Source: Caldifarciminota bacterium
GTDB lineage: Bacteria; Hydrothermota; E44-bin80
DNA: 11,234 bases
Direction of reading: 5' to 3'
Assembly: GCA_023127905.1 (NCBI GenBank)
Contig: JAGMEZ010000571.1
Coordinates: 1 to 11,234, forward strand
Shown here in pieces: positions 1,396 through 11,234 of this stretch. Every line of letters starts with the position of its first letter. Position 1 is the first letter of the stretch. Below the pieces are notes generated by a model. It was not told where the DNA came from. It worked only from the letters and a program-made list of their open reading frames with translations, and searched no databases. The translations under genes were made by a program, and so were the position numbers.

Positions 1396-1469
1396 TTATA
1401 CAGACTACGAATGGCAGAATACATGGAGTACAGGGGACAGCGATTGAAATGCCAGGAGGGGAACATTGA
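1392..1469 (+). CDS. possible 25-residue small protein, or remnant, between xer and the coiled-coil gene
   Basis: An ATG at 1392 overlaps the recombinase stop as ATGA. It opens a 25-codon frame that begins MIIQTTNGRI and ends EMPGGEH, and its TGA at 1467-1469 overlaps the TTG start of the next gene as TTGA. AGAGGT at 1381-1386 is a reasonable ribosome site five bases before the ATG. Such stop/start overlaps on both sides are typical of translationally coupled operon genes and are unlikely to be purely accidental, though a frame this short can arise by chance. I do not recognise the peptide. It has no membrane segment and is rich in Gly, Thr and Ile. In Firmicutes hslV (clpQ) follows a xer-type gene (codV), and a TT...NGRI start is loosely HslV-like, so a collapsed hslV relic is possible, but the rest does not match anything I know. 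Confidence 0.4.
   Translation: MIIQTTNGRIHGVQGTAIEMPGGEH
1454..1461 (+). promoter_or_regulatory. Shine-Dalgarno site for the coiled-coil gene
   Basis: AGGAGGGG, a near-perfect anti-SD match, sits just before the TTG at 1466. It decides this rare start for the 939-residue frame and lies inside the last codons of the small ORF. Confidence 0.7.
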
Positions 1470-4285
1470 AGAATAAAAAAGTTCGTGAGAAGGAACTACA
1501 AAAACTAATTAGAGAGATAGAAGAAAGAAAAGAGGAAAAGAAAAATGTAGAGGATTCACTTGCTTCAATATGGAGTGAAGAACTTGATCTAACACACAGG
1601 ATTGAGGAAAAAAAGAAAGAATTACGGAAACTTGAGCAAAGTGTTGACGAAACAATTGAAGAAAGAGAAACCATTGGGGTCGAAATTTGGAAGAAGAAAC
1701 GGGAATTGATGGGAATAAAGAAAGAAGTCCAGCAGAAAGGAGAAGAGGTTCCCCGAGCTGGAAAGGAAATTGCAGTTAAGGAAAAAGAACTTAAGAAGGA
1801 ATTGAAAAAAGTGATTGCAGACCTCGAAAAGTCGAAAAAACTTTTAAAGGAAACAAAGGAAGAGAATGACCTTACTGGTCAGCTTATTCAGAAGAAAAGG
1901 GAAGAAATTAAATCACTAAATAATGATATTGATTCCTTAAAAGATACGGTAGAAGAGCATTCTAAAAAAAGCAAGAGTTTAAAGTATGAAGTTATGAATT
2001 TTGAGAAAGAGAGAGATGAGATTTTAGAAACGGTACGTATCAAGAATGAGGAGCTTAAGAGAAGCACCGATGAGAGTGCTAAACGGATGAGTGAGGAAAT
2101 GGAATTCTCTACTTCCATAGAAGAACTGAAGAAAAGGAAGGAAGAACTTCTGCAAGAAATAAATAGTGATGAAGAAAGAAATACTGAACTTATGGAGGAT
2201 ATAGAAAAGTATAAAAAGGAGAAAGAAAGAATAGAGAGCTTTGTAAAAGAGAAGGAAAATCTCGAAAGTGAGAAGGAAGAACTGGAAAAGTTGATAGTTG
2301 AAACGAGAAAGGGATATGAAAGAGAAAAGAGGAAATTTGAGGAAGAGATAGAGGCTCTTGCTAAGAAGAAGTCAATGGATAAAGATAAAATATTAGAGGA
2401 GCTTTCGAAAGAGGAAGAGGAAAAGCAAGGACAAATAGCGGCGCTTGATGGAGAAATCGAACAGAAAAAGAGTGAGATGGTAACAGTCGAGAATGAAACA
2501 AAGGATTTTATAAAGAAGTTGGAGAATAAAAAAGAGGAACTTGAATCTATAAAGGCTGAACTCACGTCAATCGAGAAGGAAAGGGAGGAGATAAAGAAAC
2601 TTCGCGATGAGATAGAAGAACTTCTGGAAGAGAGAGATCGATACATGAAACAGATAGAGGAGAAGAAGAACGATCTCGATATGCTTGAAGAAGGACTTGG
2701 AAAAAGAATGGGGGATGAGCTCGACCTTGCACATAAAATTGAGCATTTGGGTGAACAGGAATCTGATCTCGTACAATCAATCTCAGAGAAAGAACAGGAA
2801 CTAATTGAAATTGGGAATCGTCTTGATGAAAGAAAATCTGATGCTGAAAACGTTAAAGAAGAAATTAATAGACTGAAGGATGAAAAGGAAAGACAGCAAG
2901 ATTCGTTTGGTGAATTGGAAGATAAGAAGAAGGTCGCTATTGAGGAGATTGATCGGCTGATAGATAAAGAAGATGATATTCGAGTACAGATTCACCAAAG
3001 AGAAGAAGAGGAGGTAAAACTATCGGGTGAAATTGAGGAATTGAGGAAAACATATGAGAAAATGAAGGATTCAATTACTGAGAAAGAAAAAGAGAAAGAG
3101 ACTATTACCAGGGAAGTTGAAAAGGTAAAAGAGAAGATTGAGAAGATAGTAAGCGAAAAAGAATATTTATTAGAAGAAAAAAACAAAACAGGAGATGAAG
3201 TAAAACAGCTTTTGGATGAAAAAGAGAAAAAAGATCGAGAACTTGATCAATTTAGAGAAGAAAAAGAAACACTACTTGATAGTTACAAAAAATCAAAAGA
3301 AAATGTTGAAAAAATAGAGAAGAAGAAAAAAGTGATAGTAACAGCACATGAGGAGATGCTATCTAAAATAAATGAATTAGAAAAGGAAAAAGATAATCTC
3401 GATCTTGCAATGAAGGATAAACGAGTTAATATGGATTCTTTAACCCATACAAAAGAGAAGCATGAGGGTACGATAAAGACCCTTGAAAAGATAAAAGCAA
3501 AATTAGAAACTGGTATAACATCTATGAGTGAAGAAAGAGAATCTCTGAAGGAAGAAGTTGATAAGACAAGAAAGGAAGTGAGCGGATACATCGTTCAGCT
3601 CCATGAACTCCAGGAATCGATAAAGGGCAAGGAAACGAAGATGGATGAGAATATCGAAAAAGCAAAGATGCTTGACTTTAAATTAAAAGAGATGGAGAAA
3701 GATGTAGAAAAACATCGAGGGAGAGAAAGGGAGTTTGAGAAGTTGCTTGAAGAAATGAAGAGACTAACAAGTGACAGGCAATTGATAACTGATAGAATAA
3801 GGAATCTTGAGGAAGAAGAAAAAAGTCTTGGAGCAAAAACTGCAAGTTTAATGAAAATAAGACAGAATCTTGAAGCAACAGTAGAAAAGAAGAAGAAGGA
3901 AGGTAAGGAAGAACTTGATAGATTGACAAAAGAGATAAAAGAGAAGGGAATGCTTCTTGAAAGAATGCAACTTCTGGAAAGCGAAGAAGTTGTAAAAGCT
4001 AAGAAAGATCTTCAGAAACTAAAGAAGGAGATTGGTGAAGAAGAAAGGATTCTTAATAATCTGAGGCAAGAGGAAAGCGAAATTGCAGAAATTAAGGAGA
4101 ATTTTGATAAGTTCGAAAAAGAAATTAACGAGAAGAGATTAGTTCTTGAGGATTTAAAAAGAGAAGAGAGAGAGAAAGCTCAAAAGATTACAAAATATGA
4201 AAAGATGATTGACGAGGCTGAAGAACGAGTAGAAAAAATGAGAAAGATAGAAAAACTCCTCGAGAAGAGAATTGGAAAGGAGTAA
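1466..4285 (+). CDS. giant headless coiled-coil protein (939 residues), function unknown
   Basis: The translation is almost entirely Glu/Lys-rich heptad-like alpha-helix from end to end. In 939 residues I count one proline (residue 96), no cysteine and two tryptophans (W36 and W75, both near the N-terminus). There is no signal peptide, membrane segment, Walker A/B or ABC signature, or C-terminal globular domain, so it is not an SMC, RecN or Rad50 ATPase although database searches may label it SMC-like from composition. A recurrent motif of the type M/W-x-E-E-L/M-D/E-L/F...IE appears near residues 36, 208 and 415. As a continuous coiled coil it would be about 140 nm long (939 x ~0.15 nm). The likely location is cytoplasmic, as a filament, scaffold or spacer comparable in style to FilP or crescentin, but this is inference. 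The frame starts at TTG with a strong ribosome site. Its end sits close to the secreted DUF4159 gene. Confidence 0.8.
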   Translation: MKNKKVREKELQKLIREIEERKEEKKNVEDSLASIWSEELDLTHRIEEKKKELRKLEQSVDETIEERETIGVEIWKKKRELMGIKKEVQQKGEEVPRAGKEIAVKEKELKKELKKVIADLEKSKKLLKETKEENDLTGQLIQKKREEIKSLNNDIDSLKDTVEEHSKKSKSLKYEVMNFEKERDEILETVRIKNEELKRSTDESAKRMSEEMEFSTSIEELKKRKEELLQEINSDEERNTELMEDIEKYKKEKERIESFVKEKENLESEKEELEKLIVETRKGYEREKRKFEEEIEALAKKKSMDKDKILEELSKEEEEKQGQIAALDGEIEQKKSEMVTVENETKDFIKKLENKKEELESIKAELTSIEKEREEIKKLRDEIEELLEERDRYMKQIEEKKNDLDMLEEGLGKRMGDELDLAHKIEHLGEQESDLVQSISEKEQELIEIGNRLDERKSDAENVKEEINRLKDEKERQQDSFGELEDKKKVAIEEIDRLIDKEDDIRVQIHQREEEEVKLSGEIEELRKTYEKMKDSITEKEKEKETITREVEKVKEKIEKIVSEKEYLLEEKNKTGDEVKQLLDEKEKKDRELDQFREEKETLLDSYKKSKENVEKIEKKKKVIVTAHEEMLSKINELEKEKDNLDLAMKDKRVNMDSLTHTKEKHEGTIKTLEKIKAKLETGITSMSEERESLKEEVDKTRKEVSGYIVQLHELQESIKGKETKMDENIEKAKMLDFKLKEMEKDVEKHRGREREFEKLLEEMKRLTSDRQLITDRIRNLEEEEKSLGAKTASLMKIRQNLEATVEKKKKEGKEELDRLTKEIKEKGMLLERMQLLESEEVVKAKKDLQKLKKEIGEEERILNNLRQEESEIAEIKENFDKFEKEINEKRLVLEDLKREEREKAQKITKYEKMIDEAEERVEKMRKIEKLLEKRIGKE

Positions 4286-7777: not shown

Positions 7778-8428
7778 ATGTTTGGAGAAATTTGGAAATT
7801 CTGGAAAAAAGAGACATTGATTGATAAGGCTGAAGAAGAGGTTGAAAAGATGTTAGTGATTGCAAAGGATATGTTCAGAATTGCAATGTCAGTGCTTCTT
7901 GATAATGAAAAGTCAAGAGCTGACCTTTATAAGATGGACAGAGGTTTGAATGAAATTCAAATAGATGTGCGGAGAAAGATACTTGAGCATCTCTCGATAA
8001 ATCCTGCAATGGACATAACAGCATCCCTTATTCTCATTACCATTGTAGTCGATATTGAAAGATTGGGAGATTACTCAAAGAATGTTCTTGACCTCTCTCA
8101 GAATATAGATATGAAATTAAAGGGTTGTTATTTTGATGAGATAAGGGATTTAAGGAATGAACTTGAGCCTCTGTTTGATGAAACGATTAGTGTTATTAAG
8201 GAAATGAGAAAGGATATAGGAAAGGAAGAGATGCAGAAGTGCACAGATATTGCAAAAAGTTGTGATACACTTCTTGATAAACTTATGGATGATGATCTCA
8301 CACCAAAAAAGGCTATCCTTGCAACGTTGCTTCTACGTTATATAAAGAGGATTGCTTCACATCTCAAGAATGTTGCATCAAGTGTTGTAAATCCTTTCGC
8401 GCGTCTCGGCTATAAACCAAAAGAGTAA
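7778..8428 (+). CDS. PhoU-domain protein, partner of the Na/Pi cotransporter
   Basis: The 216-residue, soluble, all-helical product has the typical PhoU length with two three-helix halves. The first half carries the classic acidic metal-binding motif, DIERLGDYSKN (E94 and D98). The second half has the matching helix, RYIKRIASHLKNVAS, but where E/D residues normally stand (ERIADH pattern) it has K190 and S194, so its second metal site is probably lost. PhoU proteins regulate phosphate uptake at the membrane. In many bacteria this domain is fused to the C-terminus of NptA-type transporters, so a separate gene only three bases downstream most likely does the same job. Nothing in the window (no pstSCAB or phoR/phoB) ties it to a Pst system. 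It is the last gene of the plus-strand group and faces the guaA remnant six bases away. Confidence 0.88.
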   Translation: MFGEIWKFWKKETLIDKAEEEVEKMLVIAKDMFRIAMSVLLDNEKSRADLYKMDRGLNEIQIDVRRKILEHLSINPAMDITASLILITIVVDIERLGDYSKNVLDLSQNIDMKLKGCYFDEIRDLRNELEPLFDETISVIKEMRKDIGKEEMQKCTDIAKSCDTLLDKLMDDDLTPKKAILATLLLRYIKRIASHLKNVASSVVNPFARLGYKPKE

Positions 8429-8434
8429 TCTTTT

Positions 8435-8810
8435 CTATTCCCACTCTATCGTAGCAGGGGGTTTTGAACTTATGTCGTAGACAACCCTGTTTACACCAGG
8501 AACTTCATTGATAATCCTATTACAGACTCTCCTCAGGAATCTTTTTGAAAATGGATACCAGTCTGAAGTCATACCATCCTCACTTGTGACCGCCCTGAGT
8601 GAAATAACATTTTCGTATGTTCTTTTGTCACCCATCACTCCAACGGTTTTTATAGGAAGCAGGACACAGACGATGATTCTCACCCCAAGTCCGGCTATGT
8701 CCGTATTCTCTCTGTTTTGTTCCAGACACTTCTCCTCCTGAAATATATGTGAGTAATTGATGTCCGTAGCATATACCGAGGATTACAATTCTTTCGCTTG
8801 TGATGGTCAT
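8435..8810 (-). pseudogene. guaA: GMP synthase (guaA) remnant with three internal deletions and a frameshift
   Basis: Read on the minus strand, four GuaA blocks follow each other in correct order. First is a GuaA-like N-terminus, [11 protein letters not shown] (8810-8778). It joins in frame to the GATase nucleophile region [17 protein letters not shown] and on to QREYGHS (8777 to ~8697). Then, in another frame, comes GLGVRI (~8692-8675), the start of the dimerisation domain. That joins to the complete C-terminus: [44 protein letters not shown] and KPPATIEWE, ending in TAG at 8437-8435. About 125 codons remain of ~510-525. The rest of the GATase, including His/Glu, and the whole ATP-pyrophosphatase domain with its SGGVDS loop are missing, so no GMP synthase can be made. 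The start codon still overlaps the HEAT gene stop (ATGA) and keeps AAAAGGAG ten bases upstream. The retained blocks look little mutated, suggesting recent loss or an assembly artefact. Confidence 0.85.
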
Positions 8811-11234
8811 ACAAGAGATACTCCTTTTAAAATTTCCTGTGCTCTTTTTCCCACCTCTTGGTTTTTTAGCCATGAGGCTCTTGTAAGAATGTGTCTTGAA
8901 ATATCAGTATCCATTTTTCCAAGAGTATCAACACACAAAAGCCGGATCTTATCGTTAAATTTGTATCTTCCAAAGATATTTTTATTAAAGATTACACTTT
9001 CAAAGATGTCTATTACTCTTTTTCCACCAATGGAGCCCAATACTGCAACTGTTCTTTTCTGTATTTCAAGAACTTTCTCTTTTTTCAGTAAGGATTGTTT
9101 TTCTAGGAGTTCCTTTAATAGATAAATAGATAGTTCTGTTCCCACTTTTCTTAAAGATGTGAGTGTTCTAATTACAACTTCTTTGTTTGAATCCTTTAAT
9201 CCTTCGAGAAGAAGTGCCTCACAGTCTTCATTCTTTATTTTACTAAGTGATTCCATTACTTCTATTCTAACCCGCGGTTCTGGGTCTTTCAATAACAATG
9301 AAAGGAGGTTTGAAGATTTTCCCCCCCCAATCTCTCCAAGTATGATGGCGATGTTTCTTCTAACATACCATTTTGGGTCTTCTATATATATTTTTATATA
9401 GTTATCAAAATCAGGAACATTATTTGCTGAGTCTATTAGGAGAGAGAGGACTCGTATTCTTGTTATCTTATCCTCGATTGCTTTCATGGAATGAAGAAGA
9501 AGGGGGAAAATAGCTGAACCTTTCTCTGCGAGTTCGGTATTGATAAAGCCATAAGCAACATCTCTGTTAATTGCATATATTAGGTTATGTAAGGCTTTTT
9601 GGTCTCCCTGATCTCCAATCTTTGATAATGCAATGACAACGGGTTTTAATTTTTCCTCATCTTCAAGAGTTTTTAAATACAAATTAAGGATTTCATCGAT
9701 CATCTCTGCTTGTAAACCTTTACCTTCTTTTATTAATTTTACAGCAATTTCTGCGAGAGCGTGAATAATATTTGAGAAAATCTCTTTTTCGGATTCCCTG
9801 CCAAGTCTATCAGAGAATGCAACTATTATAAGCTTAATTAGGTCCAACCTTCCAAGAAGAAGCAATTTGTCAGTAAGGTCAGTGAATGATTTAACAACAT
9901 TTCGACGTATATTGGGATTTTTGTTATTCAGTAAATCAATAAGTGATTTCAGGAGTTCTTCGATTCCTGCATTTTTCTGAATCAGGTTTCTTATTCCCAT
10001 GAGAGCATCAGAATCCACTCCTGTTCTTATTAAGTCCTTTTCAATAATTTCCAGGAATTCCTTTCTTGTATCCCCCCCTGACATATAATTTAAGACAGGT
10101 TGCTTGACACCTTCACTCTGTAGACTCTTCCTTATAGCAGGGATTAATTCCGATTTTCTTTTGCTTTTGTCAATGAAATTTGAGAAGAATTTCTCAATAT
10201 ATGATAATCGGGACTTTTCTTCAGCCCCTCCTGTTACTAAAACTTTGAGTGGATCTGTATCTCCAGTGCTTTCTGTACCACTACCGGCACCGCCTTCAGG
10301 AGCGGATGTCCCGTTTACGCCACCTCCTACACCATCTCCTACACCACCACCTGTACCACTACCGGCACCGTCTCCATCTCCAATTATTACTGTTTCAGAT
10401 AAAATTTTTGTCTCTTTAGCAATAAGATCCCCCAATTCAGATGCCGTTATTTCGTTTACAACTTTATTTACCACATCATCCCAGAATGGGATATCGTGTT
10501 TCGAGAAGAGCAATTCCCTCTGCATTTCCGGGGTGAGGACAAGAATTAATTTAGATACCGTTTCAGTATAGGTTTCAATATCTGTTTTTTCATACATATT
10601 AAAGAGTCTTTCAGCAATATTCCCTACTGCTTGTTTTATTTTACTCCCCCAGCCAGGTTCTCCCTCATCACCCTTTAATGAATTGTTGATAGTTTTTGAG
10701 AATTCTTTCGGATTTTTCCCAATATTTTTAATAAAATCGTCTGAGCTTGTTATAAGTGTCAGTAAATCCTTCCACTTTATGCTCGATTCTTTGGTATCCT
10801 CTTCCTCTCCGAATGATAAACCCCTGATGGTAATATGCTGTACATTTCTTATAGACATAATCTTTGTTACCCCTCCCTGCTTCTCAATATCCTCAGGATC
10901 AAGCCCTAATAACTCAATCAAACTGCTGAATTCATCCATGTCAACACCTTTGAGGAACGTGATTTTGCCAATCTTTCTTTTCCCGAGTATTGTGAGGAAT
11001 GTGTCAATTGTCTGTTTGTGTACAATATGAGCGGGTTTATCGTTTATAAGTAGAACATTGCCTGCTAGTGAGAGGGTAAAGAAATCATTGTCTTGTAGTA
11101 CATCTTTTAATTTTGTAAATGAAGAAGAAATTATTCTTTTTGTTATAGGGTGTGAGGCGGGATAAAGTTTAAGGTTTTTTGAAGCAGAAATAAGTCTTCC
11201 AATAATTGTTTGTGCATCCTTGCTTAATTTTTTC
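8807..11234 (-). CDS. large HEAT-repeat protein, 5' end beyond the window
   Basis: The minus-strand frame is open from the stop at 8809-8807 to the window edge, giving at least 808 codons. An ATG at 10939 looks like a start but is internal: the same frame upstream encodes coherent protein (RLISASKNLKLYPASHPIT..., LSLAGNVLLINDKPAHIV, GKITFLKGVDMDEFSSL), with no other start codon before the edge. Layout of the visible part: an alpha/beta N-terminal region of ~110 residues resembling the LYPxxHP...LxVNG type of module seen before some HEAT or signalling domains; a helical region; a Gly/Ser/Thr-rich linker (encoded at about 10246-10383); then ~480 residues of HEAT/armadillo-like helical pairs, clearest near the C-terminus (YVRRNIAIILGEIGG, DPEPRVRIEVMESLSKI, DSNKEVVIRTLTSLRKVG). 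No signal peptide or membrane segment is visible. Such repeats usually bind proteins; the partner is unknown. The stop overlaps the guaA remnant start. Confidence 0.85.
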   Translation of the reverse strand, partial: KKLSKDAQTIIGRLISASKNLKLYPASHPITKRIISSSFTKLKDVLQDNDFFTLSLAGNVLLINDKPAHIVHKQTIDTFLTILGKRKIGKITFLKGVDMDEFSSLIELLGLDPEDIEKQGGVTKIMSIRNVQHITIRGLSFGEEEDTKESSIKWKDLLTLITSSDDFIKNIGKNPKEFSKTINNSLKGDEGEPGWGSKIKQAVGNIAERLFNMYEKTDIETYTETVSKLILVLTPEMQRELLFSKHDIPFWDDVVNKVVNEITASELGDLIAKETKILSETVIIGDGDGAGSGTGGGVGDGVGGGVNGTSAPEGGAGSGTESTGDTDPLKVLVTGGAEEKSRLSYIEKFFSNFIDKSKRKSELIPAIRKSLQSEGVKQPVLNYMSGGDTRKEFLEIIEKDLIRTGVDSDALMGIRNLIQKNAGIEELLKSLIDLLNNKNPNIRRNVVKSFTDLTDKLLLLGRLDLIKLIIVAFSDRLGRESEKEIFSNIIHALAEIAVKLIKEGKGLQAEMIDEILNLYLKTLEDEEKLKPVVIALSKIGDQGDQKALHNLIYAINRDVAYGFINTELAEKGSAIFPLLLHSMKAIEDKITRIRVLSLLIDSANNVPDFDNYIKIYIEDPKWYVRRNIAIILGEIGGGKSSNLLSLLLKDPEPRVRIEVMESLSKIKNEDCEALLLEGLKDSNKEVVIRTLTSLRKVGTELSIYLLKELLEKQSLLKKEKVLEIQKRTVAVLGSIGGKRVIDIFESVIFNKNIFGRYKFNDKIRLLCVDTLGKMDTDISRHILTRASWLKNQEVGKRAQEILKGVSLV
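10273..10370 (-). repeat. in-frame direct repeats encoding a glycine-rich linker
   Basis: A perfect 20-base word containing CCACTACCGGCACC occurs at 10273-10292 and again at 10351-10370, exactly 78 bases (26 codons) apart. Both copies encode GAGSGT on the minus strand. Between and around them lie shorter related units giving GGGVGDGVGGGV. It is a minisatellite-like stretch inside the HEAT gene that can expand or shrink without frameshift when whole units move. Confidence 0.75.

Follow-up and report, generated by a model that had tools for sequence, protein, structure and literature searches.

Remains of a native guaA gene worn by deletions, and an intact CPR/DPANN-type guaA in the same metagenome bin

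Results

The guaA gene of the window (the whole stretch of DNA analysed here, 11,234 nt in length, which constitutes contig C525 in full; its draft bin totals 2.88 Mb over 668 contigs, with 89% completeness and 3.61% contamination) is a pseudogene. Homology to the GuaA domains is present in the proper order, but the gene is dead since the ATP pyrophosphatase domain with its SGGVDS loop has been deleted and the reading frame is broken. A second, intact guaA, related to sequences from CPR and DPANN organisms, is found on another contig of the same bin, C174. Probably the native guaA has been decaying by clean deletions after its function was taken over by a guaA of CPR/DPANN type, i.e. by xenologous gene displacement.

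The guaA remnant

The remnant is situated at positions 8435–8810 of the minus strand and retains 376 bp, start and stop codons included, out of 1545 bp in the ancestral gene, as seen from alignment and from synteny in L036 and L037. GMP_synt_C (Pfam) matches the translation of 8435–8674 minus (E-value = 5e-38, 129.5 bits, profile positions 16–92) and GATase (Pfam) matches the upstream fragment (E-value = 9.2e-8). The initial annotation had described this interval as four conserved guaA blocks in order, left by three internal deletions of which one shifts the frame, with about 75% of the gene gone. Alignment to the guaA genes of sister genomes bears out this description. The blocks match GuaA at 8810 to ~8778, ~8777 to 8697, 8696 to 8671 and 8670 to 8435, the junctions are located where they had been placed, and the net losses of 210, 857 and 102 bp add up to 1169 bp, or 76% of the 1542 coding bases. 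The lengths balance as well: 1542 + 3 − 1169 = 376 bp, exactly the interval 8435–8810.

Block 1 (8778–8810; all blocks and junctions are on the minus strand) encodes the GuaA start of 11 residues and overlaps the stop codon of the upstream HEAT-repeat gene. It is matched only in part in the alignment to L007, and the same 11 residues are present in the protein P0241 described below. Junction 1 (8777–8780) marks the loss of 210 bp (70 codons), in frame. Here the tetranucleotide CTCG had been suggested as shared microhomology, and it is indeed found in both flanks in L007 of sister genome G003, with CTTG on both sides in L037; the window displays CTCG at 8780–8777. Block 2 (8697–8777) extends from the GICYGH glutaminase motif to REYGH, and its 27 residues are also identical in P0241.

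Junction 2 (8695–8697), also present in P0241, is the frameshifting one and the earliest event. The raw gap is 862, but five window bases were put at chance spots by the aligner, which gives a net loss of 857 bp and a position not definable to the base. Block 3 (8671–8696) carries GLGVRII, out of frame relative to the guaA start. Junction 3 (8670–8671) lacks 102 bp (34 codons), a loss that preserves the frame of block 3, and comparison with the sister sequences reveals no microhomology there. By frame reading this deletion is absent in P0241, and it is present in a second protein, P0001. Block 4 (8435–8670) contains most of the GuaA C-terminal domain (PF00958 positions 16–92 of 92, 129.5 bits) and continues to the stop codon.

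Neighbouring genes and sister genomes

The HEAT-repeat gene upstream of guaA (8807–11233, minus strand) is a conserved neighbour and is open at the contig end. A convergent phoU-like gene (7778–8428, plus strand) lies on the other side and is open; its match to TIGR02135 (59.8 bits) is below the cut-off of 130.25. Between these same two neighbours, where the window carries the remnant, a full-length guaA is found in L036 (E29_bin43) and L037 (E44_bin50). The third sister, G003, also has a full guaA, situated at a contig end, and the gene has 514 codons in each of the three. The two relatives found for the HEAT-repeat gene sit in bins labelled Candidatus Cloacimonadota.

Elsewhere in the window, positions 1466–4285 contain a 939 aa open reading frame, almost all charged and coiled-coil-like by eye, that is partly present in L036. 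Its sole domain match, DUF4200, is weak and below cut-off. A search of Rfam gave no match within the window.

Other alleles and the order of deletions

P0241 was the sole protein found from five candidates in a search with the 81 aa open reading frame at the front of the remnant. It is an NCBI-held sequence of 121 aa, encoded on a 2846 bp contig. P0241 shows the 11-residue start of the window, then 70 residues at the site of deletion 1, then GICYGH to REYGH. Over junction 2 it has the same frameshifted RTWGENHR, with T for S just before, followed by RDYP and the end of the chain. Taken in the guaA frame, this tail is codon-compatible with LGVRII-GEIT, which, except for one residue, is the undeleted sequence found in G002 and G003. 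Outside the deletions, 46 of 47 residues are equal to those of the window, as far as a comparison of proteins goes. P0241 thus carries deletion 2 alone. At the protein level this shows the 857 bp deletion to be the earliest, followed by the in-frame losses of 210 and 102 bp, whichever of these two came before the other.

The NCBI record of P0241 names a candidate division WOR-3 bacterium, a bin label that conflicts with Cloacimonadota, and the guaA pseudogene fragment is annotated there as a gamma-glutamyl-gamma-aminobutyrate hydrolase family protein.

P0001 (82 aa) is 100% identical to the C-terminal open reading frame of the window across junction 3. It has six member sequences, and the longest contig measures 26,355 bp as against 11,234 for the window; that contig may stem from a separate assembly of one and the same sample.

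Assembly error had been named among the possible causes of the deletions, and an assembly or amplification artefact would not be out of place in a draft metagenome bin of 668 contigs. Some contigs were apparently broken by strain variation: guaB is present in the bin on two contigs whose ends (L100:1-150 and L099:1-150) overlap with 149 of 150 bases identical, and the one mismatch is a sign of such variation. Yet deletion 2 recurs in P0241 and junction 3 in P0001, both on other contigs, the neighbouring genes are open, and a single gene would hardly collect three artefacts while its surroundings have none. An artefact is therefore very improbable.

Age and constraint of the remnant

At 6 of the 120 retained codons compared, the window alone differs from a residue common to the three other rows; such single-row departures number 7 in G003, 2 in G002 and 14 in G001. 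There is no excess of changes in the dead gene, and so it died late by comparison with the divergence of these genera. Values of dS against the sisters range from 0.98 to 3.9, near or past saturation and partly not computable, and therefore only dN and the single-row changes were used in place of dN/dS. Three-point dN for the C-terminal block and block 2, calculated by hand, is 0.041 on the branches of both the window and G003, as against 0.027 on that of G002, again without excess. These figures suggest that the native guaA is recently dead.

The remnant might also still encode a useful small protein, e.g. an 82 aa C-terminal module acting on another GuaA. Block 4 shares 91% identity with G002, and the six member sequences of P0001 could be read the same way, but the conservation is explained by recent death, given the 6 single-row changes against 7, 2 and 14. 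Moreover, one of these six changes hits the MTADW motif, where the window has S in place of the A found in 234 of 239 fetched relatives (the remaining 5 gave no match to the pattern). We regard a functional module as the most improbable of the readings considered.

The intact guaA on contig C174

Three matches to the GuaA C-terminal domain are found in the bin: the window, C174 and the end of a stand-alone PP-ATPase. C174 carries a complete GuaA of 510 aa (NCBIfam NF000848, 729.4 bits; cut-off 400) whose domains are all joined in a single frame. Its translation shows the catalytic motifs GICYGH, QFHPEV and SGGVDS. Another guaA copy had been named among the ways out for a cell with the remnant, and the bin contains one on C174; no intact native guaA is found among the matches in this bin, which is 89% complete.

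The C174 sequence does not resemble the GuaA of the sisters closely. Identity to the GuaA of the three sisters is 50–52%, while 119 other listed matches, among the best 120 of 8000 scored, share 60–71% identity. Eighteen of those 119 carry an organism name, and all 18 are CPR or DPANN (Woesearchaeota 12, Micrarchaeota 2, and one each of Azambacteria, Patescibacteria, Pacearchaeota and Nanoarchaeia; again within the best 120 of 8000). In 59 other genomes (E-value = 0.001 or better) full-length identity is at most 54%, the top sequence being that of G027; partial matches in these genomes reach 57–58%, and the window remnant gives 64% over 77 residues. A scan of 147 genomes from the phylum gives three further ones with E-value = 1e-170 or better against C174 GuaA, at 52–54%.

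A tree of 66 proteins, consisting of C174, 36 of the 119 matches and 29 Cloacimonadota rows obtained from 40 locus ids, and built without G051 and G027, places C174 with the listed matches (support 100/100). In a tree of 69 rows, with G051, G027 and one more added, C174 falls within the clade of the matches (100/99), next to P0122 and P0123; the two nearest matches are 71 and 69% identical. The GuaA of sisters G001–G003 falls elsewhere, away from C174. Since C174 groups with CPR/DPANN sequences and the sisters do not, its guaA is foreign to its family. The matches in these trees were chosen as nearest to C174, so that they show its separation from the sisters' GuaA and not the exact donor. A search of plasmids gave only one weak match, a Legionella plasmid guaA.

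The GuaA of G027 and G051 (L040 and L039), which are Cloacimonadota of other families, forms a branch adjoining the CPR/DPANN clade (100/99), apart from the other Cloacimonadota sequences, and is perhaps an older transfer. It weighs somewhat against displacement, as GuaA of the kind found on C174 is thus not entirely without precedent among Cloacimonadota.

Does C174 belong to the organism of the window?

On C174, guaA adjoins purF and pyrG. The purF gene is 80, 77 and 73% identical to those of G003, G002 and G001, pyrG is 82% identical to that of G002 (no pyrG was found in G001 or G003), and a GHL10 gene shows 74, 75 and 68% identity to the sisters. These three genes belong to the family of the window's organism, and so the contig does not derive from CPR or DPANN. 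The tetranucleotide correlation between C174 and C525 is 0.55, within a range of 0.28–0.74 among 11 stretches.

The gene order of C174 is not that of the sisters. Genes other than guaA come after purF in all three sisters, and an archease-like gene (its NCBIfam match is below cut-off) adjoins a PorX gene in G001 and G002. For this PorX gene, G000 offers nothing close, the best match by E-value being 34% identical.

There are two family-type purF sequences in the bin (L062:3-677 and L004:3202-4644), one in the sisters' order and one beside the foreign guaA. The former, on C62, is partial and 75.6% identical to the purF of C174. Either purF has been duplicated or the bin mixes two family members. 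With the 3.61% contamination, this weighs against displacement within one cell, because C174 may come from a second family member. The organism of the window would then lack a fused GuaA and would obtain GMP via the stand-alone PP-ATPase, by salvage, or not at all, a reading that we consider unlikely but take seriously.

The PP-ATPase lends this reading some weight. It is native: a stand-alone GuaA-like PP-ATPase is found beside the fused GuaA in G001, G002 and G003, as well as in several other genomes of the phylum, and C178 (L066:4400-4840) and C131 (L005:4523-4828) carry its two ends, split by a contig gap. The neighbours, judged by eye, are as in G001, except that C178 has one extra open reading frame between. 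In principle this protein could serve in place of GuaA. But the sisters retain the fused GuaA besides it, and the PP-ATPase of G002 scores 308.4 bits, under the NCBIfam GuaA C-terminal cut-off of 338.75. Contamination would also require chance to bring together in one bin two things that the three sisters (77–94% complete) do not show, a dead native guaA and a foreign one. In addition, the pyrG and GHL10 genes of C174 are the bin's only matches of their kind. A single organism carrying both C174 and the window is in our view likelier than two.

Some further observations were made on these genes. In the sisters the stand-alone PP-ATPase measures 321–325 aa (L078:865-1842, L079:652-1617, L080:1056-2021). 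C131 was considered as a second guaA remnant and rejected, as it is one end of the native PP-ATPase. In G005 (98% complete) a full-length fused GuaA was not found; this genome has a 313 aa PP-ATPase frame and, on a separate contig, a glutaminase-like protein (L081, L083), like the split archaeal enzyme, with scores below cut-offs in the stretches tested (320.3 vs. 338.75 and 115.9 vs. 198 bits). A 100 aa frame in G045 was rejected as a second case, because its guaA matches are at the ends of C21 and C46, a contig break.

Discussion

In xenologous gene displacement a foreign homologue replaces a resident gene, and the displaced old copy is usually gone. The guaA case resembles this in that the resident gene is dead in its ancestral place, with a foreign homologue intact beside genes of the recipient family. 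The new copy on C174 has a foreign phylogeny and the resident guaA is inactivated in the same lineage; both copies are in the same bin, which is also the one with two purF. It differs in that the dead guaA persists in grades, from intact in the sisters to one deletion in P0241 and three in the window.

The displacement that we prefer would have proceeded as follows. A complete GuaA of CPR/DPANN type, encoded at present beside purF and pyrG on C174, would have entered the cell, and this enzyme would convert XMP, the product of the retained guaB. The native guaA, of the Cloacimonadota lineage, would thereby have become redundant and free for deletion, and would have been worn stepwise, by the 857 bp frameshifting loss and then by those of 210 and 102 bp. 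It would thus be an old copy caught still in its ancestral place during displacement. That the acquired GuaA permitted the death of the native guaA is what the presence of both in the bin suggests.

The initial annotation held that ordinary decay gives point lesions first and that several clean deletions in one gene are therefore unusual. According to Kuo and Ochman (2010, PMC2916853), accumulated deletions are the primary eroding force in Salmonella pseudogenes, so the deletions as such are not unusual. The extent of the loss is: in the same paper only a small fraction of Salmonella pseudogenes have lost more than 20% of their length. The guaA remnant is alike in being eroded by deletions, and unlike in being 76% gone with flanking genes untouched. 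Set against that source, it is at the far end of the known range, and a loss of 76% in three steps is uncommon.

In archaea, an extra fractional purQ is suspected to have arisen from duplication or transfer followed by decay, and transfers have been inferred for several other pur genes (PMC3261824). The present case differs from those in that source in having a bacterium as recipient and guaA as the gene concerned. Among the titles and abstract openings of the literature covered, nothing on this guaA case was found.

As a tentative and somewhat doubtful extension, the displacement may be so recent that one-deletion and three-deletion alleles coexist among strains, and in this lineage clean deletions of 0.1–0.9 kb may outpace substitutions where a gene is no longer needed. 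If so, the locus would offer a natural clock for a takeover in which the new gene came from tiny, often host-attached microbes.

The process looks like an ordinary one, displacement and then decay by deletion, unusually clear thanks to the intermediate allele on record, and the general picture is unchanged by it. What the guaA case provides is the loss of a housekeeping gene seen as ordered allele states, with a plausible cause in the same bin. If both guaA copies are in one cell, a larger-genomed bacterium would carry a core purine enzyme of CPR/DPANN type.
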